NCBI GenBank assembly: GCA_003478355.1
Contig: QUFC01000003.1
Coordinates: 1-64,000, forward strand
Source: Lachnospiraceae bacterium AM48-27BH
Lineage (GTDB): Bacteria; Bacillota; Clostridia; Lachnospirales; Lachnospiraceae
Direction: 5' to 3'
Length of the DNA stretch: 64,000 bases
Shown here: in pieces, positions 2,561 through 29,695 of the stretch
Layout: each line of letters starts with the position of its first letter
Numbering within the stretch: the first letter of the stretch is position 1
Made by a program: the position numbers and the translations under genes
The notes under the pieces: generated by a model
What the model was told of the DNA's origin: nothing
The model's database searches: none
Seen by the model: only the letters and a program-made list of their open reading frames with translations

Positions 2561-2657
2561 CTGCGGCGGGTCGCTTTAGCGACACTCTTCCACTCCGCCG
2601 CAGTGCGATCCCGCGGAGCGTTTTGTGTCATAGGACGAAGTTTCCTATGACATAAAA
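2561..2657 (-). repeat. Composite hairpin element, copy 1
   Basis: An outer 9-bp stem (2561-2569 with 2595-2603) encloses a small hairpin GTCGC-ttta-GCGAC and an ACTCTTCC-type linker. It is followed by TGCGATCCCGCGGAGCG and then a second hairpin (2626-2635 with 2643-2652) flanked by TTTT and AAAA. The same order and spacing recur at 29586-29695, with a different stem sequence but preserved pairing. It is not coding: a 77-codon frame across it has no protein-like composition. Confidence 0.7.
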
Positions 2658-2698
2658 GACACGTTCCCACAAGAAATGTCTTCTTATAAGAACGTGTC
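2658..2698 (-). terminator. Terminator of apt
   Basis: Nine-bp stem GACACGTTC/GAACGTGTC (2658-2666, 2690-2698) with AAAG before and TTTT after on the minus strand, directly after the apt stop codon. Confidence 0.7.
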
Positions 2699-2723
2699 CT
2701 TTCGATCTCCATGATTTTACAGA

Positions 2724-3248
2724 TTACTTACCCTCGTAAGTGATCACAGCATCTACATCATAGCCTTTTAAGCGCTCACGGCCCTTCAGACCAGCCAGTT
2801 CCATCACAAAGCAGATTTTCACAACCTGTCCGCCCAGTCTCTCGACCAGCTTGATCATAGCTTCTGTGGTACCGCCAGTAGCGATCAGATCATCCACAAT
2901 CACCACTTTCTGTCCCGGCTGAATAGCGTCTTTATGCATCTCGATCACTGCGCTGCCGTACTCCAGATCATACTCTTCTGATATGGTTTCGCATGGAAGT
3001 TTGCCTTTCTTACGGATCGGAATAAATCCTTTATGCATGGCATAAGCAACCGGAACTCCGAAAATAAATCCTCTGGACTCCGGACCAACTACCAGATCAA
3101 AATCAACATCCCTTAACATGTCTAAAATCTGGTCAATCGCCAGATGCAGTCCTTCTGCATCCTTTAAAATCGTAGTTACATCTCTAAAAATAATGCCAGG
3201 CTCCGGGAAATCCGGAATGCTTCTTACATAATCTTCTACCTTTTTCAT
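2724..3248 (-). CDS. apt: Adenine phosphoribosyltransferase
   Basis: 174-residue purine salvage enzyme that makes AMP from adenine and PRPP in the cytoplasm. The PRPP-binding motif VVIVDDLIATGGTT is intact, the GPESRGFIFG segment is present, and length matches the family (about 170). The ATG overlaps the stop of the LacI-type regulator gene in an ATGA, so translation is coupled to that gene. The regulator reads as frameshifted here; if that were real it would also reduce apt translation. The neighbours do not suggest a purine operon, so apt seems to ride on the regulator's transcript. Confidence 0.96.
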   Translation of the reverse strand: MKKVEDYVRSIPDFPEPGIIFRDVTTILKDAEGLHLAIDQILDMLRDVDFDLVVGPESRGFIFGVPVAYAMHKGFIPIRKKGKLPCETISEEYDLEYGSAVIEMHKDAIQPGQKVVIVDDLIATGGTTEAMIKLVERLGGQVVKICFVMELAGLKGRERLKGYDVDAVITYEGK

Positions 3249-4251
3249 CGGCTAATCTCCCTCATATCTTTTACAGTTTCACGGACGATCAGTTTATTGT
3301 CTAAATAAATCCGTCTATGATCTATAATACCATCTTCCAACTGCCTAAGCAAGACCCGGGTTCCCTCTTTGGCCAGTTCCCCCATATTTCGTTCCACAGT
3401 AGTCAGTTTCATATTTCCATAAGCAGACATATTCCAGTTATCGAATCCGATCAAGGCACATCTTTCGGCACCTGAAGTCCCAGCTCACCTGCTGCCGCTT
3501 TGGCTGCAAATGCCATCTCATCGTTAAAACACAGGATCGCCGTCGGAATCTTCTCCTGGTTCAGGATCCTTTTGGCCGCCTCATAACCGCTGGAGTAACG
3601 GTAATTTGCTGTCTCGACCTGCACCTGATCCGGATTCAGCCCACGTTTCAACATGGCATTTCTCCAGCCCACATGACGCAGTCTGGTAGAATCCAGTCCC
3701 GGGGTTCCCTCGATCACGGCAATCTCCCGATGACCCATTTCCAGAAGGTAATCCATGGCTTTTTCCATGGCCTTGGTCTCATCTGTCACCACATTGGGCA
3801 CATCATAAAGAATCACACGGCAGATTGCTACCATAGGGATCTCCTTTTGTAGCACTTCATTGATAAACTCGCTATCCTCCGACCGCTGGGACAGCAGAAT
3901 GATTCCGTCATAGAAGCTGGGGTTCAAGGTCCCTTTTTCATGCATATCAATACCTTTTACTACCACATTATACTTACTTCCGACCACGCTGTACACGCCA
4001 GTCAGCACGTCATGAAGAACAAACGGGGACGTCATTTTGCTGATGGTGGAAAAATACAGACCAATGGTATAGGAACGGGACAATTTTAAATGAATAGCCG
4101 CCTGATTGGGAATATAGCCCATCTCCCTGGCAATCTCTAAAATCTTCTGTTTATTCTCCGATCTGCCTGCACTGACATCATTTAATGCTCTGGAAACTGT
4201 CGAATAGGAAACGCCTGCGCGCTTCGCAATATCCTTAATTGTTACTGCCAT
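3245..4251 (-). CDS. LacI-family transcriptional regulator (frameshifted as read)
   Basis: LacI/GalR-type repressor with an N-terminal helix-turn-helix (VTIKDIAKRAGVSYSTVSRALND) and a sugar-binding core; about 335 residues if repaired, the usual length. The frame breaks at about 3450: the first part ends VPKDVP-stop, and the next frame continues IGFDNWNMSAYGNMKLTTV, exactly the expected sequence. Restoring one T in a CCTT(T)GATC context repairs it. The ATG at 4251 follows an AGAGGTG site. It lies downstream of GH28 and is the best candidate local repressor of the pectin genes. The palindromic operators near uxaB and GH105 fit a LacI protein, but this link is inferred. Confidence 0.9.
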
Positions 4252-4300
4252 ATCTCACACCTCTCTGCTGTCATTGTACACCAGTCTCCATATTTACGCA

Positions 4301-5854
4301 TTATTTTTCCACAAAATTGTCAATGTTCTCCACTATCACGGCCGGGCCATGCTGTCCTTCAATCTTTACATCTTCTAATATAAGGTTCTCGATATTATTC
4401 GCATAAATTCCAGTGTAATTCATTTCCCCAAGTCCATCCATCATAGCAGGAAGTCCCATTTGGGCATCTTCCGCATAGGTGACATGAATCCGTTCCATCT
4501 GTACCTGGCCAATTTTCTGCTCCGGAAGTCCATAGAGGTAAGCCGCCGCTACATGACAGTTGGTCGCTTCAATATCCCGGAATGCCAGATTGCGGATTTC
4601 CGGAGTTCTCTCATCCACAGGAAGTGCCTCCTTGGTCTGGACATAGTCTGTGTGGCCATCTGGATCACAATAATAGAAGCAGTTGACCACAAACGGAGTC
4701 ATCACATGATCCATGCGGATATTTTCAAAAATGATCTCATCCAGAACAGCATCTTTGCCGCGGCCTCTGCGAGTCTTGATACGAAGTCCCCGGTCTGTAT
4801 GAAGGAATAAACAATCTTTCACCGTCAGATTACGGACACCGCCTGCCATTTCACTTCCAATGGTAAGGGAGCCATGACCATCTCGCATGCAGCACTGACG
4901 AATGGTCAGATCCTGACATGGACGTTTGTATTTTCTTCCCATATAGATTTTTCCGGATTTCACAGCGATACAGTCATCACCTACGGAAAAATACACACCG
5001 GTGATCTCCACATCATGACAGGACTCCGGGTCCAAGCCATCCGTATTCGGAGATACTTTTGGGTTGATCACAGACATATCTAAGAAACGCAAGTGATCGG
5101 AAAAATATGGATGGATGTTCCAGCTTGGACTGTTCTGCACCCGAATACCCTGAACGGTCACATCGGAACAATGATTTAAGAAAATCATCCGCGGGCGGAA
5201 AGCGATATTTTTCACCTTATGGTCTTTCCACCAGTTTTCAAAAGAAGCGTTGCCATCAATCATGCCCTGACCGTAAATCGTTACCCGGCTTACGTTAATT
5301 CCCATGATAATACCAGAAAAGCAGTCTAACGGATTACCTTCCCAGGTTCCTAAGTTATACTCTTCTTTTTCATCATAGCTGTCGATCAGGCCCTTTAACA
5401 CCGGGAATTTCGTCCGGTCGGTCTCCGCAGAAAGAACAGCGCCTTCTGCCAGTTCCAGTCGCAGATCGTCTCTTAAAAATAAGCTGGTGATCTTATAGGT
5501 TCCCGCCGGGATCAGCACACGGCTCTCTTTTGGACAGCAAAGGATCGCAGCCTGGATAAAATGGGTATCATCCTGGATTCCGTCACCCTTCGCACCAAAA
5601 TCCCGTACATTTAAAGTCACAAACTCATGGTCCGTCTTCACAGAGGCCATGCTCTCTTCTTCCTGGTCTTTCACCAGGATCTCATACCGGGTATCCGGCT
5701 TCAGATCATAGATGCTATTGATGACACGGTTGGTCTTTTTATAGAATTTTCCATTTACATAAATCTCACGTTCTTTTTGAGACTCAAAAATACTGCCGTC
5801 CTGGATCTCGAATGTAATGCAGCGTGCTGTCTGAAAAATCACTTTGATGCTCAT
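4301..5854 (-). CDS. GH28 polygalacturonase-family enzyme, cytoplasmic
   Basis: 517 residues. An N-terminal beta-sandwich of about 80 residues (fibronectin-III-like) precedes a right-handed beta-helix. All four GH28 signatures are visible: NTDGLDPES, GDDCIAVKSGK, GHGSLTIGSE and RIKT. There is no signal peptide or membrane anchor, so the enzyme probably trims short galacturonides after ABC import, as an exo-acting enzyme. A paralogue with the same layout lies at 15395-16981. The start has AGGGGAG 8 bases upstream. Upstream are seven 11-bp repeats and a hairpin separating it from the permease gene, which suggests separate control of enzyme and transporter levels. Confidence 0.93.
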   Translation of the reverse strand: MSIKVIFQTARCITFEIQDGSIFESQKEREIYVNGKFYKKTNRVINSIYDLKPDTRYEILVKDQEEESMASVKTDHEFVTLNVRDFGAKGDGIQDDTHFIQAAILCCPKESRVLIPAGTYKITSLFLRDDLRLELAEGAVLSAETDRTKFPVLKGLIDSYDEKEEYNLGTWEGNPLDCFSGIIMGINVSRVTIYGQGMIDGNASFENWWKDHKVKNIAFRPRMIFLNHCSDVTVQGIRVQNSPSWNIHPYFSDHLRFLDMSVINPKVSPNTDGLDPESCHDVEITGVYFSVGDDCIAVKSGKIYMGRKYKRPCQDLTIRQCCMRDGHGSLTIGSEMAGGVRNLTVKDCLFLHTDRGLRIKTRRGRGKDAVLDEIIFENIRMDHVMTPFVVNCFYYCDPDGHTDYVQTKEALPVDERTPEIRNLAFRDIEATNCHVAAAYLYGLPEQKIGQVQMERIHVTYAEDAQMGLPAMMDGLGEMNYTGIYANNIENLILEDVKIEGQHGPAVIVENIDNFVEK

Positions 5855-5882
5855 GTTGTTTTCTCCCCTTAATGTTTTGTTA

Positions 5883-5959
5883 TGTTTTGTTGATATTCTA
5901 TAGATGTTCTATTGCTGTTCTGTTGCTGTTCTGTTGCTGTTCTATTGCCGTTCCGTTTA
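5883..5959 (-). repeat. Tandem 11-bp repeats in the GH28 leader
   Basis: Seven consecutive 11-base units read on the plus strand: TGTTTTGTTGA, TATTCTATAGA, TGTTCTATTGC, TGTTCTGTTGC (twice), TGTTCTATTGC, CGTTCCGTTTA. A ten-base partial unit lies at 5873. One unit is about one helical turn. They sit just upstream of the GH28 ribosome site and do not encode protein. Confidence 0.75.
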
Positions 5960-5970
5960 AACGCAAAAGA

Positions 5971-5993
5971 GGATTCTCCATGACAGAGAATCC
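5971..5993 (-). terminator. Intra-operon hairpin between permease and GH28
   Basis: GGATTCTC (5971-5978) pairs with GAGAATCC (5986-5993); on the minus strand it is followed by TCTTTTGCG. It follows the permease stop codon and could attenuate or protect the upstream transcript. Confidence 0.55.
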
Positions 5994-6007
5994 TCCTGTA
6001 ATCCGTA

Positions 6008-6859
6008 TTAGCCCTTGACACCGCCTGCTGCAATACCATCAATGAAGGAATCCTGTGCGCAGAAGAATACGATCAGGGATGGAATGATGGAGATCAGTGA
6101 CATAGCAAGAATTCGGTTCCACTGGAAGCCTACGTCTCCATCCATGGACATACGCAGGTAAATGGAGTTGGTGTATTTTTCCATGTCGGAAATATAGATC
6201 AATGGTCCCATAAAGTCATTGGAGGTCCACATGAACTGGAACAGTGCACAGGACACCAGGGATGGCTTTAACATTGGAACGATCACATACCATAAGGTCT
6301 TGATGGCGTTACATCCATCGATCTTGGCTGCCTCTTCCAGTTCCTTCGGAACACCTCTCAGGAACTGGATCAGCATGAATACGAAATAAGTATCCGCTGC
6401 AAATAAGGACGGAATCACCAATGGTAAATAGGAGTTTGTCCAGCCCCATTTGTTGAACATGATATACTGTGGCGCATTTAATACAACCTGTGGAAGGAAT
6501 AAGGTTGCCATCATCATGGAAAACATGAAACCTTTACCCTTGAAGTTGAATCTGGCAAAACCGTATGCAGTGATCGTTGCAGATACAATGGTGAAAACCA
6601 CCTTTGGGATGACGATCTTGTAAGTGTTTAACATGGATAAGATCAGGTTGATCTTTCCACCATAGTTCTTAAATGCATTCTCATAGCCATCAAATACCGG
6701 ATTCTTTGGCCAGAACCAGGCGCTGGTAAAGATCTCGGAGTTGGTCTTGAAGGTAGCGCCGACCATCCAGATCAACGGATATACCATGATAAATCCAACA
6801 GCAATCAAAAGGGTATAACGGATCACGGTACTGATTTTTCTTTTCTGCTCTCTTGTCAT
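6008..6859 (-). CDS. ABC sugar transporter permease (MalG/UgpE type)
   Basis: 283-residue inner-membrane subunit of a carbohydrate ABC importer, with about six transmembrane helices and the cytoplasmic EAA loop (EEAAKIDGCNAIKTLWYVIVP) that docks the ATPase. It forms a heterodimer with the product of the gene just upstream (6-base gap) and receives substrate from the lipoprotein encoded at 8402-9781. Start chosen with GGGAGG 9 bases before the ATG. No ATPase gene is in the module. The substrate is inferred from GH28 and GH105 neighbours to be pectin-derived oligosaccharide. It is closely similar to the protein at 16996-17844. Confidence 0.94.
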   Translation of the reverse strand: MTREQKRKISTVIRYTLLIAVGFIMVYPLIWMVGATFKTNSEIFTSAWFWPKNPVFDGYENAFKNYGGKINLILSMLNTYKIVIPKVVFTIVSATITAYGFARFNFKGKGFMFSMMMATLFLPQVVLNAPQYIMFNKWGWTNSYLPLVIPSLFAADTYFVFMLIQFLRGVPKELEEAAKIDGCNAIKTLWYVIVPMLKPSLVSCALFQFMWTSNDFMGPLIYISDMEKYTNSIYLRMSMDGDVGFQWNRILAMSLISIIPSLIVFFCAQDSFIDGIAAGGVKG

Positions 6860-6865
6860 GATATT

Positions 6866-7768
6866 CTACCTCCCATCCTCATCAGAATAATAAACCCATT
6901 TTTTCTGGCTGACAAACGCAATACCGGTCAACGCACATACGATAATGAACAGTACCCATGCCTGTGCACTTGCCATACCCATCTTGTGACGTAAGAATGC
7001 GTTGTTGTAGATCAATACAGAAATCAAGGTTGTCGCGCCGTTTGGTCCACCCTTGGTTACTAAGAACGGTCCGTTGAACTCCTGGAACGCCTGGCATAAC
7101 TGGGTGATCAGGTTATAAAAAATAACCGGTGTGATTAACGGTACGGTAATCTTGAAGAACTGGGTCCATTTGCCGGCGCCGTCGATGGAAGCTGCCTCAT
7201 ACAGATCCTGGGACACACCCTTTAATGCTGCCAGGAAAATGACCATGGCCGAACCAAACTGCCATACTCGCAGAAGCACGATCACTGCTAACGCGCCATT
7301 ATCACTTGCCATCCAGTTGATCTTCGGAAGGCCAAATGCTGTGATCACGGTATTGATCAGACCATCCGTATTAAATACTGCTCTCCACAGGATCGCGATC
7401 GCGATGGAACCGCCTAAAATGGATGGAATATAGTAAGCGGTACGGAAGAAGTTTACTCCCTTTAATTTAAAATTCAGAATATATGCGATAAATAAAGCGA
7501 ATGCCAGTTTTAACGGTACATCGAAAATTGCATATTTAAAGGTTACTTTAAACGCTCTTAAGATATCTTCATCGGTAAAGATCTTGTTGTAGTTCATCAT
7601 ACCGTATTTGCTGATTCCGCTGAACATATCATAGTTGGTGAAGCTGTAATACAGGGAAGATGCAAATGGATACACCTTAAATAACAGAAAACCGATCAGC
7701 CACGGTAATACAAACACAAAACCGATGTTTTCTGTCAGAACCTTATGTAAGCTTTTCTGCTGCTTCAT
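6866..7768 (-). CDS. ABC sugar transporter permease (MalF/UgpA type)
   Basis: 300-residue membrane subunit, partner of the next permease. About six transmembrane segments; the EAA loop reads YEAASIDGAGKWTQFFKITVP. The ATG has AGGAGG 8 bases upstream. It lies in the same leftward operon as the binding-protein gene, but a small ORF, a 133-bp hairpin element and a strong hairpin intervene, consistent with the usual excess of binding protein over permease. Paralogue at 17850-18800. Pectic oligosaccharide transport is inferred from context only. Confidence 0.94.
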   Translation of the reverse strand: MKQQKSLHKVLTENIGFVFVLPWLIGFLLFKVYPFASSLYYSFTNYDMFSGISKYGMMNYNKIFTDEDILRAFKVTFKYAIFDVPLKLAFALFIAYILNFKLKGVNFFRTAYYIPSILGGSIAIAILWRAVFNTDGLINTVITAFGLPKINWMASDNGALAVIVLLRVWQFGSAMVIFLAALKGVSQDLYEAASIDGAGKWTQFFKITVPLITPVIFYNLITQLCQAFQEFNGPFLVTKGGPNGATTLISVLIYNNAFLRHKMGMASAQAWVLFIIVCALTGIAFVSQKKWVYYSDEDGR

Positions 7769-7813
7769 AACTGCTGCCTCCTATTTCTCCTAATTTCCTA
7801 TCTTTCATTTATT

Positions 7814-7946
7814 GTAACTATTCAGTACCTTCATAGTTACGAGCAAAAATCCATTCCAGATCAGCTTCGCTGATGGGATTTTTGCTTTCTAGCCTATGTG
7901 TTCTTACGGTCAGCGCAGCATGTGCGCAGACCTACTGAATAGTTAC
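7814..7946. repeat. 133-bp three-hairpin palindromic element, copy A
   Basis: The ends are a perfect 14-bp inverted repeat (GTAACTATTCAGTA at 7814 with its complement at 7933). Inside lie three hairpins: GTAACTAT/ATAGTTAC (7814-7840); AGCAAAAATCC/GGATTTTTGCT (7842-7886), enclosing ATCAGC-ttc-GCTGAT; and GGTCaGCGCA/TGCGCaGACC (7908-7932). Another element of exactly the same length and plan lies at 36851-36983. It is non-coding and sits between a small ORF and the permease gene. The first 27 bases recur, inverted, at 62956-62982. Confidence 0.75.
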
Positions 7947-7949
7947 CAT

Positions 7950-8282
7950 TTATTTCAGTTCAGCCAGATACTCCTCATATTTCTCCCGATTGATGGTGCG
8001 AAGTCCGCACCCTTTCTCCAGAATTCCGAAAAGCTTTTTCTGCTGAGCCTCGGTCAGAAATGCAAAACTGCCTTCCTGTTTCCTTTGTTCAATTATGTCC
8101 GCAGCCTCCTTACGGAAAATCAGCTGCAGTGCCCGGTAATGTTCAAAGATTTCCTCGGACATCTCGTCTATGGTGTCAATTAACAGGGCCATCTGGTCCA
8201 AATCAAGAATATTCAAATTTTGAAAATATGTTACAATATCGGCATAGTTTGCCTTATCCTTTACTGCTTCTCTAATATCCAT
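7950..8282 (-). CDS. Small hypothetical protein (110 aa)
   Basis: 110 residues, helix-rich and charged, with no signal peptide, membrane segment or motif I recognise. It reads like a real soluble protein (MDIREAVKDKANYADIVTYF at the start, many Glu, Lys and Leu) with a weak AGGGAT ribosome site. It is inserted between the binding-protein and permease genes of the first pectin module. The second module has no counterpart, and the stop codon abuts the 133-bp hairpin element. No function can be proposed. It may be an accessory gene brought in with the element, or an unrelated small gene. Confidence 0.55.
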   Translation of the reverse strand: MDIREAVKDKANYADIVTYFQNLNILDLDQMALLIDTIDEMSEEIFEHYRALQLIFRKEAADIIEQRKQEGSFAFLTEAQQKKLFGILEKGCGLRTINREKYEEYLAELK

Positions 8283-8326
8283 ACTAATCCCTATACCTAT
8301 ATCACAGTTCCTACTATTTCTTTATT

Positions 8327-8357
8327 GAAGCCGCCGGAGCTTGATCCCGGCGGCTTC
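8327..8357 (-). terminator. Strong hairpin after the binding-protein gene
   Basis: Perfect 11-bp stem GAAGCCGCCGG/CCGGCGGCTTC with a 9-base loop and no long T-run. It is positioned to stabilise the binding-protein mRNA or to limit read-through into the permease genes. A functionally similar hairpin follows the paralogous gene at 19962-19994. Confidence 0.7.
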
Positions 8358-8401
8358 GCCTGTTGCTTTATGCCTGTCTGATTCTGTCAATCCTTATAAA
8401 A

Positions 8402-9781
8402 TTAGTTGCCCAGAGTCTCATTTACACCGTCTAACAGTGCCTTCGCTGCTGCTGCTGCATCATAATCATCAGAGCTTAATTTACCAAATACTTTGTAGTA
8501 AACACCATCTGGATTAGCCTTTAAGTCATTGTGCTCAAACTTGGAATCCAGTGGGAACTTGGAGTGATCCATAACTTTCGCATTTGCTTCTTTTACTAAT
8601 GCGTTGCCAAGATTCTTCTCATCTAATACTGTCTTTGCTGCTGCGGAGCATGGGATACCACGCTCAGTAGCGCAGATCTCGATGCCTTCCGGATCATTTA
8701 ACAGGTAGTTGATCAGCATTGCTGCTTCCTTTGGATGAGCAGAGTTAGCGGAAACTGCAAGACCCATAGAGATCTTGGTAAATCCACCATTGTAATCACC
8801 AAATTTGATGAAATCGCCAATTACAAATTCCTGGTTTGGTTTGTTGGTACTCTCAACAACTGCCTTCTGGAACTTGGATGCAGAAGAATCCCACTCGAAG
8901 ATACCTGCATATTTACCATCGATCCACTTTGCGTTCTTATCAAGAGAATCGGCCATATCGCCGTTGATGGTTGCCAGTGTTGGGATCACATGACCATCTT
9001 CCAGTTTGTTGATGAAGTCCATGCCAGTTGCGATCTCTTCCTCTGTATACTGTACTTCGCCGTTCTCTACCCATGGTTTTCCATATACGGACTCCAGATA
9101 ATATACTAAGAAGATCATACGATCATACTCACTAAGCGCTAATGGATAGTAATCCTCGTTGTAAGCCTTGAATGCCTCGCCTGCTGCAAATAAGGAAGCC
9201 TCATCTGTTGGCAGAGCAACGCCAACTTCGTCAAATGTGGTCTTATTCCAGTAGAACAGACGTCCGGTTAATGCTACCGGCACTGCCATTAATTTGCCAT
9301 CTGCTTTACAAAGCTCCAGAGCATCAGATGGGAACTGTGTCAGATCCAGAACATCGGAGTAATCTTCCAGATTTGCAAAGTTTGTACCGTTACCGCTGTA
9401 AGACTCGATCCAGTTCCAGTTGATCTGCATTACATCTGCTGCATTGCCGCCCATGATGTTTAATGCCTGTTTCTCTTCCCAGCCGGACCATGCGCCGTAC
9501 TCGGTAGTTACGGTAATATATGGATATTTCTCCATGAAAGCTGCTACTGCTTTCTCTGTTGCCTCATGTCTGGAGTCACCGCCCCACCAGGAGAACTTTA
9601 ATTCCACTGGTTCCTGGCTGTCTGCTGCATCACCTGCTGCAGAAGACTCTGCTGCTGTCGTATCAGCCGCTGCTGCTGCGGTTGTCTCTTTTGCAGTGTT
9701 GCTGCCGCCGCATGCTGCTAAAGACAGTGTCATGGCGGAAGCCAGTGTCAGGGACATTGCTTTTTTAATGCTTCTTCTCAT
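8402..9781 (-). CDS. ABC transporter sugar-binding lipoprotein
   Basis: 459-residue extracellular solute-binding protein (family 1). The signal peptide MRRSIKKAMSLTLASAMTLS ends in a lipobox, LAAC-GG, then an Ala/Thr/Ser-rich linker, so the mature protein is membrane-anchored on the outside and captures oligosaccharides for the two permeases. The ATG at 9781 is chosen over a longer frame because GGGAGAG precedes it and the lipoprotein signal begins there. A paralogue with similar N-terminal features (EPVxxRFSWWGGxSRHKAT) is at 20020-21393. The pectin substrate is inferred from neighbours. Confidence 0.94.
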   Translation of the reverse strand: MRRSIKKAMSLTLASAMTLSLAACGGSNTAKETTAAAAADTTAAESSAAGDAADSQEPVELKFSWWGGDSRHEATEKAVAAFMEKYPYITVTTEYGAWSGWEEKQALNIMGGNAADVMQINWNWIESYSGNGTNFANLEDYSDVLDLTQFPSDALELCKADGKLMAVPVALTGRLFYWNKTTFDEVGVALPTDEASLFAAGEAFKAYNEDYYPLALSEYDRMIFLVYYLESVYGKPWVENGEVQYTEEEIATGMDFINKLEDGHVIPTLATINGDMADSLDKNAKWIDGKYAGIFEWDSSASKFQKAVVESTNKPNQEFVIGDFIKFGDYNGGFTKISMGLAVSANSAHPKEAAMLINYLLNDPEGIEICATERGIPCSAAAKTVLDEKNLGNALVKEANAKVMDHSKFPLDSKFEHNDLKANPDGVYYKVFGKLSSDDYDAAAAAKALLDGVNETLGN

Positions 9782-9837
9782 AATAATTACTCTCCCTTTC
9801 CTATTTTGTGTGCGCTCCCGGTTGCAAATTTTAATGT

Positions 9838-9851
9838 TGCAAAGGTTTGCA
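9838..9851. promoter_or_regulatory. Palindromic operator candidate in the binding-protein leader
   Basis: TGCAAAGGTTTGCA is a perfect 14-bp palindrome of LacI-operator type. Two further TTGCAA motifs flank it. It lies about 90 bases downstream of the predicted start of transcription, so it would act as a roadblock rather than by covering the promoter. Confidence 0.45.
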
Positions 9852-9943
9852 CAATCTTGCAAAAAATTATGCATATTCGACACCTCCGCCGCTTCGCGAT
9901 TGTACCGTGTCAAAAACATGCACCATTTCTTGTTGATGTCTGT

Positions 9944-9972
9944 ATTATAGCATTGTTTATATTGCTTGTCTA
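9944..9972 (-). promoter_or_regulatory. Promoter of pectin module 1
   Basis: TAGACA (9967-9972), 17-bp spacer, TATAAT (9944-9949) on the minus strand, about 160 bp before the binding-protein ATG. The 329-bp interval 9782-10110 holds this promoter, the palindrome at 9838 and the divergent GH105 promoter region; nothing else is seen in it. Confidence 0.7.
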
Positions 9973-10049
9973 TTATATATTTTGTCTATTTTTTCACCAT
10001 CTTTTTGGTGCTAATGACTAATTTCTTTTCTGTGTCGTCTATGTTAATA

Positions 10050-10072
10050 TATACTATATGCAAACGTTTGAA
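10050..10072 (+). promoter_or_regulatory. GH105 promoter -10 and LacI/cre-type operator
   Basis: TATACT (10050-10055) with a poor -35, then the operator-like TGCAAACGTTTGAA (10059-10072) overlapping the expected transcription start. The position suits repression by a LacI-family protein. It also resembles a cre site for CcpA, and sequence alone does not separate the two. Confidence 0.5.
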
Positions 10073-10110
10073 ACGCAAAGTTTTCAGCAATTATAGAAAG
10101 AGGTATGAGT

Positions 10111-11238: not shown

Positions 11239-11248
11239 AATCAAAAAT

Positions 11249-11286
11249 AACGCCGCTTCGCAGAGATTTTTCTCTGAAGCGGCGTT
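11249..11286 (+). terminator. Terminator of GH105
   Basis: Long stem AACGCCGCTTC...AGCGGCGTT with an inner CAGAGA/TCTCTG, followed by GTTTTTG, ten bases after the stop codon. Confidence 0.85.
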
Positions 11287-11342
11287 GTTTTTGATACTAA
11301 GCAGCTGTGATTTTTGATGATTTCGTGGCAGCCACTTTCATA

Positions 11343-11468: not shown

Positions 11469-11477
11469 AATCCTCCG

Positions 11478-11639: not shown

Positions 11640-11701
11640 ACTCTTATCACCTCACTTTTGTTTCTATGCTTATTTTAGTGAATGATTACTTATATGTCAA
11701 G

Positions 11702-11733
11702 GAGGGGCATGTCCGTAAATGGACATGCCCCTC
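11702..11733 (-). terminator. Terminator of uxaB
   Basis: Thirteen-bp perfect stem (GAGGGGCATGTCC/GGACATGCCCCTC) with a 6-base loop, about 30 bases after the uxaB stop codon. Confidence 0.8.
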
Positions 11734-21393: not shown

Positions 21394-21434
21394 AATGTTT
21401 TCCTCCATTATATTATTTTTTACTTAACTGGTCT

Positions 21435-22163: not shown

Positions 22164-22173
22164 CATAACCTCC

Positions 22174-23448
22174 TTATTCTTGTTTGGAATAATCATCCCA
22201 ATATTTTTCATAAACAGCTAACAATTCATCTCTGTCTATTTCCCCTGTAATGTACCTGGCCCATTCCTCGCTTGTTGTTTCTGCGATTCCTATGGGCAGA
22301 TAGCCCATGAGATCATCGGTCATTTTATGCCTTGTATAGTATTCATACGTATCCTTTGCCATGCTGCATAAGCCTGTCTGGCACTCGGAAGCAATCACCG
22401 GCATGATTCCCATGTTTTCTTTTTGGTAAGCCAGTGCTCCACTGTCTCCGCTCATCCAATTAATGAACTCTTTTGCTTCTTTCTGATGTTTTGAGTTTCT
22501 TGTAACACCAAATCGTACCGTATCCATCAAAAGTGGATTTTTCTCTGCATTATCGCTTAATAACATTGGACCAATCTGGGTTACCTGATCAACCCCCTGT
22601 CCCGCTTCTTTCATTCCACTTAAATCTCTGGCGCTTTCGTTTAAAATCATGGCATATCGCCCAATATAAAAATAATTTCTTGCCAGATCTGTATCCAGCT
22701 GAAGTGGTCTCCGGTTTCCATATTCCAGCGTCAGGTCACAAAAATCAAATAATGCCTGCCAGTCCGGATCATCTACAATCGGTTTCTGTGTATTTTTCTT
22801 CAATCTCCGGATATACAGCTTGGGGTCCGGTTTTAACGCCGTCATCTGCAGCAATCCATTTTCTACCCAGGTATTGATCTCGTGATAAGGATTCATGAAC
22901 TGGAAAATGTCTTTTTTCTCCAGATCCTCGCAAAGCTGTTTTAATTGTGATTTTGTTCTCGGTACCCGTTCCCATCCGGCTTGTTTTAACAATTCCATGT
23001 TATAGAGGATTCCCATCCCATAGATGGCATCCGGAACCGAATAATAATGCCCATCGATCTTTCCTGCCTCCACTACATCCGGAAACATCTGTGTCAGTAC
23101 GGGAAGATCATCCAGCTGGATCAGGTGGACACTCCACTCCCTCAATTTTTCTCCCGCTCCTGCTTCCATAATATCCGGAAGAGTTCCGGTAGCCAGTTTC
23201 ATATCCATCAGATCCCAATATGAATTCTGGCGAACCAAAATCCACTCGATATCTTTGATCTCCGGATGTTCCTTCAAATAAAGCTTTGTCAGTCCATCAA
23301 TGCTCTGATCCCACTGGGATTCTGCAATACAGACCTGAAGCGTGACCATCCCCTGCGACTCCTTCGGCTCTTCATTATGGACCGCACATCCTGCATTGAT
23401 CAAACAGATGCCTGCGATCAATGCGGCAATTTTATTCACTTTTTTCAT
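22174..23448 (-). CDS. Extracellular solute-binding lipoprotein without dedicated permeases
   Basis: About 424-residue lipoprotein: signal MKKVNKIAALIAGICLI, lipobox NAGC, then a family 1-type binding fold (DIMEAGAGEKLREWSVHLIQLDDLP, GQGVDQVTQIGPMLL). The ATG at 23448 has GGAG 7 bases upstream. It is the first gene of the module 2 operon and diverges from the YesM-type kinase gene. A separate binding protein (20020-21393) already serves the permeases, so this one could be an alternative substrate receptor or a periplasm-side partner of the sensor kinase. Both are inferences. Confidence 0.82.
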   Translation of the reverse strand: MKKVNKIAALIAGICLINAGCAVHNEEPKESQGMVTLQVCIAESQWDQSIDGLTKLYLKEHPEIKDIEWILVRQNSYWDLMDMKLATGTLPDIMEAGAGEKLREWSVHLIQLDDLPVLTQMFPDVVEAGKIDGHYYSVPDAIYGMGILYNMELLKQAGWERVPRTKSQLKQLCEDLEKKDIFQFMNPYHEINTWVENGLLQMTALKPDPKLYIRRLKKNTQKPIVDDPDWQALFDFCDLTLEYGNRRPLQLDTDLARNYFYIGRYAMILNESARDLSGMKEAGQGVDQVTQIGPMLLSDNAEKNPLLMDTVRFGVTRNSKHQKEAKEFINWMSGDSGALAYQKENMGIMPVIASECQTGLCSMAKDTYEYYTRHKMTDDLMGYLPIGIAETTSEEWARYITGEIDRDELLAVYEKYWDDYSKQE

Positions 23449-23554
23449 TGGCATTCTCCATTCCGTCAGAAATTCACGGCTCAGGAAGATTGTTTATGTC
23501 CTGATTTTACCGGTTCTGACCTTATTTTTACACTGACAGTATTGCTTTTCAGGT

Positions 23555-23567
23555 GGACAATTTTCAC
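23555..23567 (-). promoter_or_regulatory. Candidate YesN-type activator site, operon 2
   Basis: On the minus strand GTGAAAATTGTCC, identical over 13 bases to 29512-29524 in the same orientation upstream of the second bicupin gene. A weaker half-site (GCAATACTGT) follows about 22 bp later. The downstream -10 (TAAAAT) lacks a good -35, as expected for an activator-dependent promoter. Confidence 0.5.
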
Positions 23568-23679
23568 TTTTTTCTTTAAAAATCATCTGCCCTTTTCTTG
23601 CCTTTCATATGCGGGTATTATATCATAATTAATAAGAAGCAGATTGCAATTCTCTATTCTGCCTTCAGGAGGATTTTTC

Positions 23680-25650
23680 ATGAATACAAAGCCTTATGAG
23701 AGTGTTCACATCCGTATGATAAAGTTTCTATCTGTCTGCCTGATCGTACCGATGTTGATCTACTGCTGTTATTCCTATACTGCAACAAAGTCCAGATTAG
23801 TTAAAAACTACCAGGAGCAGACTCTAAACACGATGGAAGCCACTTCCCATTCCATCACTTCTTATATGAGGATTGCAGACTTTACTGCCAAAAGCATCCA
23901 TTTTAATGGTGAGATTCTTCCGCTTCTAAAACTAAATGGGCAAAAGCTTTCTCCGAGCCGCCAATTACAGGTGACCAACCAGTTATTCGGTTATCTGCAG
24001 CAGCTTTATGGCATCGTTCCGGAGGCAACTCAGATCCATTTAGATGCATATAAGCTACGAAGACTCATGATCCTGACCGACACCTTTCAGCAATACGAAA
24101 AAGAACACATCTATGTCTGGAAGGAACGCAAAGTGACTACTCCACCTTATGAAACATATATTAATCCCACCCATCTGCAATATGACTACAATTTCACAAA
24201 CACCGATTTAAATACCTATGCGATGGTTGTTACTTTAGTTCTTCCGATTTATGATATTCCTGCAACTGACGAACCAATTGCTAAATTATCCATAGATATT
24301 CCTCTGGATGTATTTCAAAGTATGTGTTCTCCTCTTTATGATGAGGCAGAGCACTTTTCAATCATCGATTCCAAACACCATGTGATCTTTTCATCAGATG
24401 CTGCAGCTAATGGGACCCTTTCTTCTGATCCATTGTTTCTGACCATGACCGATCAGGCTGCTGCATCCGGTCAATCGATCATACATTCCAGCAGAAAGGA
24501 TTATTATTACTGTGTTCCCATTCAGGACTCTTCCATGAACTGGTATATGATCAAAACAACACCAAAAAACTATGTATACCGGGATGCGAGTATTTTCCTG
24601 CGGCACAGCACCTTTCTTTTATTTTTATCACTGCTCATTGCCCTGACACTGTCTGTCACCACAGTGATGCGGCAGACTGAGCCGTTACGGCAATTGACCA
24701 AATACACCGATGCGATCCAGAAAGGGAATTTGAATGAACATCTTTCTGACTACCTGGTCTATACGGAAAATGATGAGATTGGAAGCCTGATCCGAAGTAT
24801 CCAGAAGATGATCTACTCCATCAACCATTTTGTTATTCGGGAATACCAGTTGGAGTTAGCTAACAAATCCAGTGAATTAAAGGCGCTGCAGGCTCAGATC
24901 AACCCTCATTTTATTTACAATACCTTGCAATGCATTGCTGCGGAGTCCTTAGAAACCCATAATATGGAAGTCTACCGCTCCATCACCACCCTGGGACACA
25001 TGATGCAGTATTCCATGGATACCAAAAATAACAAGGTTACTTTAAAACAGGAGATCACCAACTGCAGTAACTATATCCGTTTACAAAAAATGCGTTTTTC
25101 CAACAAAGATATCCGTCTGGAATTAAACAACGAACCCGACACCTTGGAAATCCTGGTTCCTAAAATGATTCTGCAGCCATTGGTAGAAAATGCTTTTAAA
25201 CATGGAAACTTATTAAAGATCCCTGATGCCTGCATCCAGATCCGTTCTTTTCTGAAGGATCACATCCTTCACATCTTAGTAGAGGACAATGGGATCGGCA
25301 TTTCTTTTCATACACTGGCTCAGGTCCAGGAACAATTAAAAAATACCAAAGAGGAATTAACCAATCAAGGTGCCAACACGGTTCTTCGATATTTTACAGA
25401 AGCGGAACAACATGCAAAACAGGAAGAACCTTCCGATACTTCATCCAGCTTTGAAACACGTTTAAAAAATGATCGTCAAAATGTTCATATTTCTAATCAT
25501 ATCGGACTTTGTAATGTTTACATGCGTCTGCTTTTAATGTACAACAACCAGTGCCAGCTCTCCATCTATCCCAATGATGAATGCGGCACTACCATCCATA
25601 TCGAAATTATATTAAATACACTTGAGGAGGGAGTGAAACAAACATCATGA
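23680..25650 (+). CDS. YesM-type sensor histidine kinase
   Basis: 656-residue membrane kinase of the HPK7/YesM type. A first transmembrane helix near residues 13-33, a large extracellular sensor region and a second helix near 305-325 are followed by HAMP (QTEPLRQLTKYTDAIQKGN), the His_kinase box with phosphoacceptor (LQAQINPHFIYNTLQ) and an ATPase domain (LQPLVENAFKHG). The ATG at 23680 follows AGGAGG. It overlaps the response regulator gene and probably senses pectic oligosaccharide outside the cell, since it diverges from the pectin operon; the ligand is inferred. Confidence 0.94.
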   Translation: MNTKPYESVHIRMIKFLSVCLIVPMLIYCCYSYTATKSRLVKNYQEQTLNTMEATSHSITSYMRIADFTAKSIHFNGEILPLLKLNGQKLSPSRQLQVTNQLFGYLQQLYGIVPEATQIHLDAYKLRRLMILTDTFQQYEKEHIYVWKERKVTTPPYETYINPTHLQYDYNFTNTDLNTYAMVVTLVLPIYDIPATDEPIAKLSIDIPLDVFQSMCSPLYDEAEHFSIIDSKHHVIFSSDAAANGTLSSDPLFLTMTDQAAASGQSIIHSSRKDYYYCVPIQDSSMNWYMIKTTPKNYVYRDASIFLRHSTFLLFLSLLIALTLSVTTVMRQTEPLRQLTKYTDAIQKGNLNEHLSDYLVYTENDEIGSLIRSIQKMIYSINHFVIREYQLELANKSSELKALQAQINPHFIYNTLQCIAAESLETHNMEVYRSITTLGHMMQYSMDTKNNKVTLKQEITNCSNYIRLQKMRFSNKDIRLELNNEPDTLEILVPKMILQPLVENAFKHGNLLKIPDACIQIRSFLKDHILHILVEDNGIGISFHTLAQVQEQLKNTKEELTNQGANTVLRYFTEAEQHAKQEEPSDTSSSFETRLKNDRQNVHISNHIGLCNVYMRLLLMYNNQCQLSIYPNDECGTTIHIEIILNTLEEGVKQTS

Positions 25651-27263
25651 AATTATTAATTGTCGATGATGAATACCATGTAATCAAAACGGTCAGATAT
25701 CTGCTTCAGATATCCCCGATCCAATTCGATGAGATTTTTGAGGCACAGTCAGCCAAAGATGCCATCACCATCATTGAACGGGAACGACCTGAAATCCTGA
25801 TCACAGATGTACTGATGGCAGATGTAACAGGACTGGATCTGATGAATTACTTAAATAGCACTTCCATTCCGATTAAAACGATCGTCATTTCCGGATATAA
25901 TAATTTCGAATATATCCGTGCTGCTTTAAAAGAGGGCGGTGTGGATTATCTGCTAAAACCGATCGATGCAGATCAGTTATTTTCCGCTGTAGAGACCGCC
26001 ATTAATCAATGGGAAAAGGAAGATGCCCAGAAAAGGCAGACCTTAAAGCATCTGGATATGATCCAGTCCATGAGTTCTCTGTGTAAGGAAACTCTTCTTT
26101 ACCGTATCATGACTCAGAGCTCTATCGAAAAGTATTATCAAGATCTGCTTCAGATTGTTCCTGGCCTGAAGCAATGTCGTAACTGTATGGTTGGTTATGC
26201 TAACTGCGGCCCGTTTTTTTCAACACATTCTGAAAAAAGCTACAACGTGTTGAAAGAATTTATCGCCTCTTTGGATGGTATTCTTCAAAAGAATAACATT
26301 GGTTCCTGCTTCTGGAGCTCTGATGATACCTCTGAGATACTGCTTTTTTTGCACCATCACACCAGTGATGCGCTGCAGATACTTCAGGACTCTCTGGAAA
26401 AACTATGCAGTGAATATGCACTTCCATTCAGTTTTGGCATCAGTCGTCCTATGGCTTTTCCATCTATGGCTCTTAACGCCTGCAAACAGGCCCGTACTGC
26501 GTTTTTCCATCAAACTGTTTTCAACAAATCTCCGGTCCTGCTTCTCTATAATCAGGTACGTGAATCTTCCTGCCAATTGGAACAGCCTGATCTGGAACAG
26601 AAATTATTCAGTGCGCTGATTACTGGAAATGAAGAACTGTTAGATGCTTCTATCAGCGAATGGATCCATATACTTTTTGAAGATGACGATCTGTGTCTTC
26701 AGACCGCTTTCCATGCGATTGAGCATTTTAATCATCTGATGGAAAACTGGAACATTGAACTTTCCAGACAATATCCAAAGCTCACTCTTTCCGATTGTCC
26801 GAAACTATTTTATTTTCAATTTTTAGATAGTGATGGTCATTTATCGCTTGAAAGTTTGAAAAAAAGCATCAAATTTGAAATGTTTCAATTATCTGGAGAA
26901 CTGACTTCTCCAAGCACCAATCCGCAAAATGACGTAATCTACCAGGTCGCACATTATATTCGCCTGAATTACGCCAAGCCCTTTAGTCAGTTTTCCTGCG
27001 CCCAGTTGTTTTTCATCAACAAAAATTATATGTGTCGAAAATTTAAAAACACCTTTCATACCAGCATGGTTTCCTATCTAAACCAGATCAGGATCGATCA
27101 TGCCAAAGAACTTCTTGAAACCCCGGGAGTTAAGATTAAAGATGTAGCAAATCTGGTTGGTTTTGAAGACGAAAAATACTTTTCCCGGCAATTTCACAAG
27201 AATACCGGACTTTCTCCCAACGAGTACCGGGCTCAATTCATATCAAAAGCAGAAACTGATTAA
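25647..27263 (+). CDS. YesN-type response regulator with AraC DNA-binding domain
   Basis: 538 residues. The N-terminal receiver has D7-D8, phosphoacceptor Asp54 (ILITDVLMAD) and KPID; a long middle region of unknown fold follows; the C-terminal AraC/XylS domain has two helix-turn-helix motifs (DHAKELLETPGVKIKDVANLVG and YFSRQFHKNTGLSPNEYR). The start overlaps the kinase stop by 4 bp (ATGA). Such pairs activate neighbouring carbohydrate operons, and a candidate site shared by two promoters here is noted at 23555 and 29512. Confidence 0.94.
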   Translation: MKLLIVDDEYHVIKTVRYLLQISPIQFDEIFEAQSAKDAITIIERERPEILITDVLMADVTGLDLMNYLNSTSIPIKTIVISGYNNFEYIRAALKEGGVDYLLKPIDADQLFSAVETAINQWEKEDAQKRQTLKHLDMIQSMSSLCKETLLYRIMTQSSIEKYYQDLLQIVPGLKQCRNCMVGYANCGPFFSTHSEKSYNVLKEFIASLDGILQKNNIGSCFWSSDDTSEILLFLHHHTSDALQILQDSLEKLCSEYALPFSFGISRPMAFPSMALNACKQARTAFFHQTVFNKSPVLLLYNQVRESSCQLEQPDLEQKLFSALITGNEELLDASISEWIHILFEDDDLCLQTAFHAIEHFNHLMENWNIELSRQYPKLTLSDCPKLFYFQFLDSDGHLSLESLKKSIKFEMFQLSGELTSPSTNPQNDVIYQVAHYIRLNYAKPFSQFSCAQLFFINKNYMCRKFKNTFHTSMVSYLNQIRIDHAKELLETPGVKIKDVANLVGFEDEKYFSRQFHKNTGLSPNEYRAQFISKAETD

Positions 27264-27309
27264 CCATTCATAGCAATGCGATGTCACATAATACATTCAG
27301 GAGGTTTTT

Positions 27310-28518
27310 ATGCATCACAATCATCTACACATGCAGCAGCTGTCCAGTCAGCATATGGAACAATATAATGCCCTGCTCCGCTATGTATTTCAGGTCACGG
27401 ATCATCAATTAAGCGATGTCGGATGGCAGGAAAAAGAAATCATCCGCGCTAAATTCCCTACTATGGAAAAGGCAGATGTCATTGGCTGGTTTGATGATAA
27501 TACCTTAGTCTCCCAGGTCGCTGTTTATCCCATGCATATCAACATCTACGGAACTATTTATTTTATGGGTGGGCTCACAGGGGTCGGCACATATCCTGAA
27601 TACTCCAACATGGGGCTGATGCACAAGCTTCTGGAACAGGCTTTAAAAAATATGCGTGAAAAAGGCCAGTACATTTCCTATCTGTATCCGTACTCCATTC
27701 CCTATTACCGCAGGAAAGGCTGGGAGCTGATTTCTGACAAAATCACTTATAAGATCAAAGATTTCCAGCTTCCAAAGAAACGGCAGGTTCCAGGCTTTGT
27801 GCGCCGAGTGGCACCGGAAAGCAACGCTATCCAGGAAACCTATAACCGCTATTCTGCTCATACACACGGTGCAGTCATCCGTGATGATCTGGCATGGAAT
27901 GAATACTGGTTATGGGATCAGGACGATATTATGGCTGCCATCTATTACACTGATAAGGAGGTTCCGGACGGATACGTAATCTATTGGATCGAAGATGAGA
28001 TCTTTCATATAAAAGATATGATCTACAATACAGAGGAAGCCCGCATCGGCTTGTGGAATTTTATATCTGCCCATTTTTCCATGATCACACGGGTAGAGGG
28101 CAATACCTTCACCAGCGAACCTCTCGCTTTCCTTTTCGATGATGCAGAGATACAGGAAACCATTTCCCCTTATTACATGGCCAGGATTGTAGATTTTCAG
28201 CAATTTATTGCTCAATACCCCTTTAAGCCTGACAATAATGACCGTGAATGGCATTTCACTCTCCTGGATCCGATCATGGAATGCAATCAGGGCTCCTTCT
28301 GTTTAAAAATTGATAAAAATGGCAGAGGAACTGCAACCCCGATTTCAGAGGAATGTCCTGATCAAATAACGATCCAGACGATGACTACAATGCTGATGGG
28401 CTATAAACGCCCCTGTTATCTGGCGAAGGTCGGACGCTTAAATACCAGCGAAGCAATTATTGATCTTCTTGAGGATGCCATCGAGCAGTCTGAACCTTAT
28501 ATCTCTGATTATTTTTAA
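27310..28518 (+). CDS. Eis-like GNAT N-acetyltransferase
   Basis: 402 residues. An N-terminal GNAT domain with the acetyl-CoA-binding stretch GLTGVGTYPEYSNMGL, a second GNAT-like domain, and a C-terminal sterol-carrier-like segment match the 'enhanced intracellular survival' acetyltransferase family. Some members acetylate aminoglycosides or protein lysines; the substrate here is unknown. AGGAGG lies 5 bases before the ATG. It follows the YesMN pair in the same direction and ends in a bidirectional terminator. Any role in sugar use is unclear. Confidence 0.85.
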   Translation: MHHNHLHMQQLSSQHMEQYNALLRYVFQVTDHQLSDVGWQEKEIIRAKFPTMEKADVIGWFDDNTLVSQVAVYPMHINIYGTIYFMGGLTGVGTYPEYSNMGLMHKLLEQALKNMREKGQYISYLYPYSIPYYRRKGWELISDKITYKIKDFQLPKKRQVPGFVRRVAPESNAIQETYNRYSAHTHGAVIRDDLAWNEYWLWDQDDIMAAIYYTDKEVPDGYVIYWIEDEIFHIKDMIYNTEEARIGLWNFISAHFSMITRVEGNTFTSEPLAFLFDDAEIQETISPYYMARIVDFQQFIAQYPFKPDNNDREWHFTLLDPIMECNQGSFCLKIDKNGRGTATPISEECPDQITIQTMTTMLMGYKRPCYLAKVGRLNTSEAIIDLLEDAIEQSEPYISDYF

Positions 28519-28522
28519 AAAC

Positions 28523-28572
28523 AAAAATTGGCGCGTGATAAATGATCACTCATTCTTCACACGCCAATTTTT
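28523..28572. terminator. Bidirectional terminator with repeat-like core
   Basis: AAAAATTGGCG (28523-28533) pairs with CGCCAATTTTT (28562-28572) between convergent genes. The enclosed part shares TTGGCGCGTGAT and ATTCTTCACA with the composite element at 29579-29695, so this terminator seems to contain a reduced copy of it. Confidence 0.75.
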
Positions 28573-28638
28573 TATTTCATTTGAAAGAATCTGCATCACC
28601 ACTCAATGGGGCTTTACACTTTCTCACTAACCGTAAGA

Positions 28639-29421
28639 TCAATCGTCTGGATTTTTCTTTCTGTTGAATTTTTCTTCATCGGTAAAATGCTCAAACCACA
28701 CGTAGTAAACCTCTTTGCCTGGTTCCGATACCAGATCATGGTCAGCACCTGCCGGGATGAAGCTCCAGTCACCAGCCTTATGGTTGATGGTCTCCATGTT
28801 ATTGTCCTTCTTGTATCCTACGCTCATAGAGAAATCAGAATTGCCTACACAGTAGTTCCACTGATGTACTGCCGGATGTCCTGCCTCTGTGGTTCCTTCT
28901 CCATTTGCCCTGGTAGTTCCCAGAATGATTCTTCCTAACCATCCGGTACACAGAACCATACGTGCCTCTGTATGTGGTCCCTTGCAATCCTGTACATAGC
29001 GGACACACTCACTATGCAGTCTGAAATACGGTAATGCAATATGCCATCTGTCATACTCTGCTTTGTCATATTCATTCATATCAACAACATTAAAGACAAA
29101 CTCCATGTCTTCTTTTGCACGGATCTCATATGGTACTTTGTCAAAGAACGGTGCATAAAATGCCAGTTCAGTGATCTGATGAACACCATCACAATCCTCT
29201 AATTCTCCATTTCCTTTACCAAAGAAAATGATCACGGTCTTATCAGCATACAATTCTGGTTTCACAGAAGAACCTGCTTTTAAGAAATATTTGAAGCTGC
29301 GGATTCCACCATCATATACGCCTGGAAGAAGTTCGGTTTTTGCAACTCCGTCAGCATCAAAATTCTTCTCAATCTCGTCAGCCTTCACCACATAATAGTT
29401 TTTGTCATAATCTTTTTTCAT
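28639..29421 (-). CDS. Second bicupin protein
   Basis: 260 residues, two cupin-type halves, related in layout to the 21435-22163 product (shared patterns FKYFLKAGSSV / YKCQVKAGETV, RWHIALPYF / KWHISLPRF, GDWSFIPAGADHDL / GDFAFIPVDIDHAI). AGGCGG-type ribosome site before ATG. It is a single-gene unit with its own promoter region carrying the candidate YesN site, so it is probably co-regulated with the pectin operon. Cytoplasmic. Isomerisation or linearisation of an unsaturated uronate is a reasonable guess only. Confidence 0.75.
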   Translation of the reverse strand: MKKDYDKNYYVVKADEIEKNFDADGVAKTELLPGVYDGGIRSFKYFLKAGSSVKPELYADKTVIIFFGKGNGELEDCDGVHQITELAFYAPFFDKVPYEIRAKEDMEFVFNVVDMNEYDKAEYDRWHIALPYFRLHSECVRYVQDCKGPHTEARMVLCTGWLGRIILGTTRANGEGTTEAGHPAVHQWNYCVGNSDFSMSVGYKKDNNMETINHKAGDWSFIPAGADHDLVSEPGKEVYYVWFEHFTDEEKFNRKKNPDD

Positions 29422-29511
29422 GTCTCCGCCTCCATAAACCTGATTGATTTGATGGTTCTATCATACCTGATTCCGCCCAAAATCAACACATACATTTTTG
29501 ACTAATAAGGG

Positions 29512-29524
29512 GGACAATTTTCAC
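29512..29524 (-). promoter_or_regulatory. Candidate YesN-type activator site, bicupin gene
   Basis: Minus-strand GTGAAAATTGTCC followed 22 bp later by TCAAAAATGT, an approximate direct repeat two helical turns apart, upstream of a TATGAT -10 with a poor -35. The first 13 bases are identical to 23555-23567. Confidence 0.5.
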
Positions 29525-29585
29525 CTTCACGGTTATGGGGGGAATTACCTGTGAATTCAAGTCGAACATCCGTGAGACTTGGCGC

Positions 29586-29695
29586 GTGATTCTGGTCAGC
29601 GTAGCTGACATATTCTTCACAGAATCACTGCGCATCCTCGCGGAGCGTTTTTTGTGTAACGGGTAATTCAACAGAATTACCCGTTACACAAAAAA
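29586..29695 (-). repeat. Composite hairpin element, copy 2
   Basis: An outer 9-bp stem (29586-29594 with 29620-29628) encloses GTCAGC-gta-GCTGAC and an ATATTCTTCA linker. Then comes TGCGCATCCTCGCGGAGCG (29629-29647) and a 22-bp perfect hairpin with a 4-base loop (29648-29695) whose ends are T6 and A6. It has the same order and spacing as 2561-2657. The 329-bp interval 29422-29750 holds this element, the candidate activator site and the cspA terminator. Confidence 0.75.

Follow-up and report, generated by a model that had tools for sequence, protein, structure and literature searches.

According to excerpts of PMC7290912, insertion sequences of the IS200/IS605 type insert 3′ of a fixed sequence of four or five nucleotides, which is not duplicated, and excerpts of PMC8266576 place the guide tetranucleotides of IS608 and ISDra2 5′ of the palindromes at the ends. 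Non-autonomous elements derived from this type, that is, PATEs and IS605-type miniature inverted-repeat transposable elements (MITEs), consist of ends only, with no gene and a hairpin at each end. The element examined here has two full copies in a stretch of 64,000 nucleotides of Lachnospiraceae bacterium AM48-27BH (contig QUFC01000003.1, positions 1 to 64,000; hereafter the window). It is likely a non-autonomous IS200/IS605-type transposable element that carries no gene, with relatives of three subfamilies (A, B, and C).

Similarly to PATEs and IS605-type MITEs, the element has no gene and a hairpin at each end, as seen in the fold of the window copies, in the aligned right-end hairpin (H1), and in the ends of subfamily C. 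Subfamily C is inserted 3′ of a T-rich pentanucleotide without target duplication, and one of its left ends is homologous to that of a tnpA–tnpB element. The differences from these MITEs are a body of four hairpins with a conserved H2/GGA core, unseen in the IS605 loci read here, the tie of A and B to terminators, the many carriers without a Y1 transposase match, and a 7-bp complementarity between the ends of C short forms. The element most likely represents an unnamed and widespread IS200/IS605-type branch, with a four-hairpin body and a terminator preference in the A and B lineages; it is probably not a new RNA but a branch of this established type of single-strand transposon. No description of it was seen in searches of an open-access library.

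Architecture, covariation, and dispersal

An earlier note on the same DNA had placed a composite hairpin element at 2561–2657 and 29586–29695. Both copies are present there when both strands are read, and in the order given, but the element is larger, with an additional hairpin (H1) on its left side and a GCG(C)/GCG(C) pairing that prolongs the 9-bp outer stem (S1) and leaves a bulged T. In detail, the forward strand reads H1, GCG(C), S1, an inner hairpin (GTC..GAC), a TTC linker, S1′, the bulged T, GCG(C), ATCC, (N), CGCGGAGCG, and H3. The stretch between H1 and ATCC forms H2, whereas CGCGGAGCG (CGC-GGA-GCG) itself folds into a 3-bp stem with a GGA loop, and H3 is a hairpin with a T-run before its stem and an A-run after it. 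In each copy, H3 is followed by the terminator of the minus-strand gene on the right. The outer stems, which had been said to differ fully, both pair but differ in only five of nine positions (CTGCGGCGG vs. GTGATTCTG).

Folded as single-stranded DNA, the minus strand of each copy forms four successive hairpins (H3, the 3-bp stem with its GGA triloop, H2, and H1), with energies of -38.1 kcal/mol (z -7.7) for copy 1 and -47.1 kcal/mol (z -11.6) for copy 2. None of 200 shuffles was as stable, and the copies fold beyond 200 shuffles on both strands.

Relatives were collected by scanning the core pattern over one genome per species, which gave at least 120 stretches with 80 titles listed. Nine of the 80 titles belong to other phyla and lack the hairpins; the others are either from Lachnospiraceae genera or carry the labels Eubacterium, Eubacteriales, Clostridiales, Sarcina, and similar. 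Fifteen of the 120 stretches were excluded as chance matches. For the alignment, 29 loci were excluded, leaving 79 usable copies and 50 after removal of near duplicates; 49 were aligned first (one with a long inner hairpin was dropped) and then 44 (five with irregular H1 or length were dropped), which biases the alignment toward good pairing.

Across these 44 relatives, from H1 to the core, standard pairs fill 88.1% of the cells, compared with 67.2 in shuffles. Both sides have changed in 24 of 28 pairs, S1 showing such changes in nine pairs out of nine, and covariation amounts to 0.487, whereas shuffles give 0.165 and sliding of the partners gives no more than 0.130. The structure is under selection, as the earlier note had proposed from its two copies. 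Because the aligned copies were picked by their core, the invariance of the core in the alignment is a product of this choice; among 132 copies passing the stem test, the core stem is CGC-GGA-GCG in 118, GCC-GGA-GGC in four, CCC-GGA-GGG in two, and non-complementary in eight.

Strong covariation is also what would be expected of a host-selected RNA or 3′ untranslated region element (a regulatory RNA, transcript stabilizer, or terminator accessory) that is transcribed and retained for its RNA structure, and the position of A and B behind genes in a fixed orientation would suit it too. However, the S1 cells comprise 336 Watson–Crick, 2 G-U, 2 A-C, 24 G-A, and 17 other combinations (counted after moving one misplaced gap in one subtype), and those of H1 include 17 G-U and 16 A-C. 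More G-U pairs on one strand would be expected of an RNA; neither strand stands out, so S1 fits mobile DNA better. H3, with its T-run preceding and its A-run following the stem, is not itself laid out as a terminator, which also counts against such an RNA. At gathering scores, no Rfam family matched the element, either in the window or in 12 loci including copies, in agreement with the initial view that no named RNA family is concerned, and a permissive scan of copy 2 produced only subthreshold matches, mostly of microRNA models on the long hairpin. The element can be confused with structured RNAs or terminators.

A covariance model, built from the 44-copy alignment (H1 to core), was used to count copies outside the 64-kb window in relatives, a search like the one that the earlier note had suggested for related Lachnospiraceae. 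It matches 3–97 times per genome in 36 of 36 genomes, all of them selected as carriers of a copy. Sampled evenly across the family, 185 of 397 Lachnospiraceae genomes give a match at E ≤ 1e-4; this survey used stricter filters and scored no more than 11 candidates per genome. Further copies in related Lachnospiraceae are many, by pattern scan and by model. Found in nearly half of the sampled genomes, gut and rumen bacteria among them, with up to 97 copies, the unnamed element influences how the regions behind genes are built in common gut bacteria. Within single genomes (G350, G024, and G369; genomes and loci are given as G and L numbers), groups of near-identical copies lie at different places and in different directions.

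Three subfamilies can be told apart by their ends, whereas H1, H2, and the core are alignable across all of them. Subfamily A (CCGCC...TGCGATCC) and subfamily B (CGCGCC...TGCGCATCC) have an H3 with T-run and A-run. Subfamily C starts with TCAAG or TTCAAG, ends with TTAAA or ATAAA, and often has an extra CCACC..GGTGG hairpin in H3. Both window copies have an H3 of A/B type. Copy 1 belongs to subfamily A; copy 2 carries H1 and H2 of C type, close to those of G350, and judging from its sequence it looks chimeric, with a body of C type and an end of A/B type; bodies and ends seem to have been exchanged.

Some variants were met among the relatives. Locus L204 (G028) has three A-type units in tandem with a 126-bp period, followed by a solitary H1 with AAAAA/TTTTT arms. 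In several copies of the same genome (L202, L208, L212, and L218), a second repeat starting with GATTGCGCAAAGCGCAATC directly follows the element and is possibly a further element with this layout. At L120 (~4700–4770, plus strand), the loop of the inner hairpin of a C-type copy is interrupted by another hairpin, apparently a nested insertion. In L290 and L282 (G298), H1, H2, and H3 are kept, but the core mini hairpin is missing or has another hairpin in its place.

Insertion sites of subfamilies A, B, and C

The insertion of subfamily C can be read from two genomes of one genus, G350 and G431, which align at 70–89% over a syntenic stretch. The filled site in G350 reads ...AGAGAGTATATTTAT, then 179 bp starting with CTCAGTCGAG and ending with CTCGACTTGAA, then TATTTTTAAG...; in G431, the orthologous empty site is ...AGAGAGTATATTTATTATTTTTAAG..., without intervening or duplicated bases. 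The junction is exact (G350 ...GTATATTTAT, 179 bp, TATTTTTAAG... vs. G431 ...GTATATTTATTATTTTTAAG..., gap 0). At this exact site, the C unit is inserted directly 3′ of TTTAT without target duplication, in the habit of the IS200/IS605 type. A second, near-exact filled and empty pair lies behind a terminator, with TTTAT before the element and a difference of 3–5 nt on the far side. In total, 31 elements of G350 were compared with ~365 kb of G431, and both flanks were matched in six.

A further link to this type comes from genome G007. The left end of its C elements (C007) aligns over ~43 nt with the left end of a tnpA–tnpB element in the same genome (L168), which encodes a tnpA of 135 aa (PF01797, Y1_Tnp) and a tnpB of 375 aa with three IS605/Cas12f-type Pfam domains (OrfB_IS605, Cas12f1-like).

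The left end of subfamily C occurs at 60 places in G350. Among 30 fetched copies, 13 have the core, 15 have both ends but neither H2 nor core, and two lack the right end. The 15 short forms come in six lengths, eight of them sharing one, so some may be a single short form that moved or mutated instead of independent deletions. One short derivative (L323) has become an almost perfect left-end palindrome. The 15 sites have not retained H2 and core; this would be expected of a parasitic element, but not of an RNA required locally. Presence that varies at orthologous sites, and the lack of H2 and core in half of the fetched copies, speak against a host-selected RNA. With dispersal, empty site, loss of H2 and core, and scarce wobble pairs in S1 all favoring mobile DNA, an RNA family is very unlikely, and the element is an example that covariation alone does not prove RNA.

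Subfamilies A and B occupy different sites from C. A hairpin bearing G+C lies directly beyond the A-run of H3 in 53 of 84 A/B copies (4.3 expected from shuffled flanks), although in some tandem A/B copies the next H1 adjoins H3 and may inflate this number; the respective count for C is 5 of 55 (0.6 expected). Among collinear genes, A/B copies run with the gene in 37 cases and against it in four, compared with 13 and 9 for C. Convergent and divergent places hold 22 and 17 A/B copies and five each of C. The orientation count excludes 40 copies far from a gene (19 C, 17 A/B, and 4 other), and 10 further copies fall in neither group (5 --, 1 ++, 1 +-, and 3 -+). From both counts, 15 chance loci, 19 viral loci, ends that do not fit the pattern, duplicates, and copies near contig ends were left out.

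In G024, eight listed B copies appear, by eye, to begin after TTTAT or ATTAT. Most economically, A and B would use a T-rich target similar to that of C, and terminators present such a target in a single direction. Group IIC introns likewise insert behind intrinsic terminators in the direction of the gene; unlike these, the element, with its ~125–180 bp, is too short to contain intron domains or a reverse transcriptase.

A bias toward one replication strand was also considered and is not used as evidence. It fits 19 of 19 loci of G298, where elements lie on the plus strand under negative GC skew and on the minus strand under positive skew, but it is confounded with gene direction there, and G350 (20 loci) shows no association.

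In the mechanism proposed for the IS200/IS605-type element, the minus strand would be the one to read. The left end H3 would stand directly 3′ of a T-rich 5-bp target (TTTAT, and possibly TTTAA or TTTGT), followed by the GGA mini hairpin, H2, and the right-end hairpin H1. A Y1 (HUH) transposase acting in trans would excise and insert the element as folded single-stranded DNA. Its substrate would be recognized largely by shape, so that the stems could vary in sequence provided that pairing is preserved. Next to the core, an A-rich stretch may serve as a guide pairing with the target; unlike the guides of IS608 and ISDra2, this complementary stretch is on the far side of the hairpin. Subfamily C would insert at TTTAT or TTTAA in either direction relative to genes. 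Subfamilies A and B, if they move like C, would insert in the T-tracts of intrinsic terminators and so come to lie behind genes and in their direction, and the window copies may have arrived in this way. The terminator preference provides an opportunity to test how a transposon moving as a single strand may reach an insertion site where it does no harm.

Transposase genes and competing explanations

Several results weigh against an IS200/IS605-type origin. A Y1 (PF01797) match is found in 17 of the 36 carrier genomes, and none in the other 19; in smaller sets, it is present in four of five other carriers and in 7 of 10 of a further set in which G007 is counted again. Copy number does not track the presence of Y1 (median 23 in the 17 genomes with it, 19 in the 19 without). 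Six carriers have at least 58 copies, four of them without Y1 (97, 79, 59, and 58) and two with it (82 and 61). Many carriers are metagenome assemblies, from which genes of insertion sequences are often lost, and the Y1 gene may have been lost after the spread of the element.

The high-copy carriers without Y1 also support the idea that A and B are mobile elements of the same shape moved by another, non-Y1 enzyme that recognizes the T-tracts of terminators; A/B and C indeed differ in their ends and in the sites they occupy. Against it stand the common alignment of H1, H2, and core, the joining of a C-type body to an A/B-type end in window copy 2, the starts in G024 that resemble the C target, and the loss of such genes from metagenome assemblies, and we regard it as quite unlikely. 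A transposon lineage homing to intrinsic terminators, with the A-rich guide pairing with the T-tract and the GGA-loop module recognized by a non-Y1 enzyme, would account for the terminator bias as well as for the carriers that lack a Y1 match; this is unlikely as well, if somewhat easier to entertain.

Neighborhoods of Y1 genes likewise count against an IS200/IS605-type origin. A strong model match occurs at only three of 63 Y1 loci (30 + 33), all in the later set, namely L362 (91 bits), L352 (80 bits), and L348 (41 bits), and no Y1 gene is flanked by strong matches on both sides. In L352, L362 (G423), and L348 (G426), the copy is within ~0.4–0.6 kb of Y1 sequences, and the Y1 genes of L352 and L362 are fragments at contig ends. 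An autonomous partner of the G350 elements was looked for and not found: by coordinate comparison, none of the 60 left-end places lies within 2 kb of the seven Y1 matches in this genome.

The same neighborhoods bear on repetitive extragenic palindromic (REP) sequences, or REPINs, spread by a REP-associated tyrosine transposase (RAYT). The REP/BIME/REPIN repeats resemble the element as intergenic palindromes in high copy number. They carry a GTAG tag, though, and no conserved GTAG or similar tetranucleotide exists beside the hairpin in either alignment (49 and 44 copies); the element is not regularly beside a Y1 gene, is far longer than REPs, and has another architecture. A spread of this kind is highly improbable.

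The remaining points against an IS200/IS605-type element concern ends and sites. The right end of the tnpA–tnpB element L168 does not resemble H1, and end homology to a tnpA element was found for one C lineage, with no such match shown for A/B. The C short forms have 7-bp complementary ends (AGTCGAG/CTCGACT), whereas the IS200/IS605 type is described as free of terminal inverted repeats in excerpts of PMC7290912. Four of the six flank-matched sites of G350 and G431 are too diverged to read. No clean A/B empty site was obtained at the one locus tried, next to a tRNA, where the element is present in one of nine genomes with the same left neighbor and end fragments occur in some relatives; one genome with a different left neighbor carries a variant copy. 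On viral contigs, 19 pattern matches included no real copy, and none had the hairpins.

Features of the window

The coordinates of the two copies and their surroundings are given below. The T-tract of the phosphoribosyltransferase gene terminator forms the flank of H3 in copy 1.

Table 1. Positions of the element copies, their parts, and adjoining terminators in the window
Feature	Position	Strand	Basis
Copy 1, H1, putative right end (the transposon being read on the minus strand)	2535..2556	+	sequence, model, fold; aligned with relatives
Copy 1, H2	2557..2607	+	sequence, fold, alignment
Copy 1, H2: CCGC extension	2557-2560		
Copy 1, H2: S1	2561-2569		
Copy 1, H2: inner hairpin (linker follows)	2570-2583		
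Copy 1, H2: S1′	2595-2603		
Copy 1, H2: bulged T	2604		
Copy 1, H2: GCG	2605-2607		
Copy 1, conserved core, ATCC and CGC-GGA-GCG mini hairpin	2608..2620	+	alignment, fold
Copy 1, H3 with T/A-run flanks, putative left end	2621..2657	+	sequence, fold
Copy 1, putative target TTTAT	2656-2652	minus	analogy with the subfamily C empty site and G024 copies
Intrinsic terminator of the phosphoribosyltransferase gene (2724-3248, minus)	2658..2699	-	sequence; gene by Pfam
Terminator-like hairpin between convergent genes	28523..28572	.	sequence, fold; not reported by the model at E<=5
Copy 2, H1, C-type sequence (CAAGTC..GACTTG)	29558..29581	+	sequence, model, fold
Copy 2, H2	29582..29633	+	sequence, fold, alignment
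Copy 2, H2: GCGC	29582-29585		
Copy 2, H2: S1	29586-29594		
Copy 2, H2: inner hairpin (linker follows)	29595-29609		
Copy 2, H2: S1′	29620-29628		
Copy 2, H2: bulged T	29629		
Copy 2, H2: GCGC	29630-29633		
Copy 2, core ATCC-T-CGC-GGA-GCG	29634..29647	+	sequence, fold
Copy 2, H3, A/B-type T-run end	29648..29695	+	sequence, fold
Cold-shock protein gene (29751-29954, minus), terminator next to H3 of copy 2	29696..29729	-	sequence; gene by Pfam

The hairpin between the convergent genes had been taken for a reduced form of the element. It does share sequence with copy 2 (GGCGCGTGAT and ATTCTTCACA), but it has the shape of a terminator and escapes the model; a decayed copy is possible.

Elsewhere in the window, an ordinary ribosomal protein L10 leader (Rfam RF00557, 77.7 bits) lies at 31156–31295 on the minus strand, and Tandem Repeats Finder (TRF) located short tandem repeats at 5883–5957 and 62453–62580 (periods 11/22/33 and 18/39).

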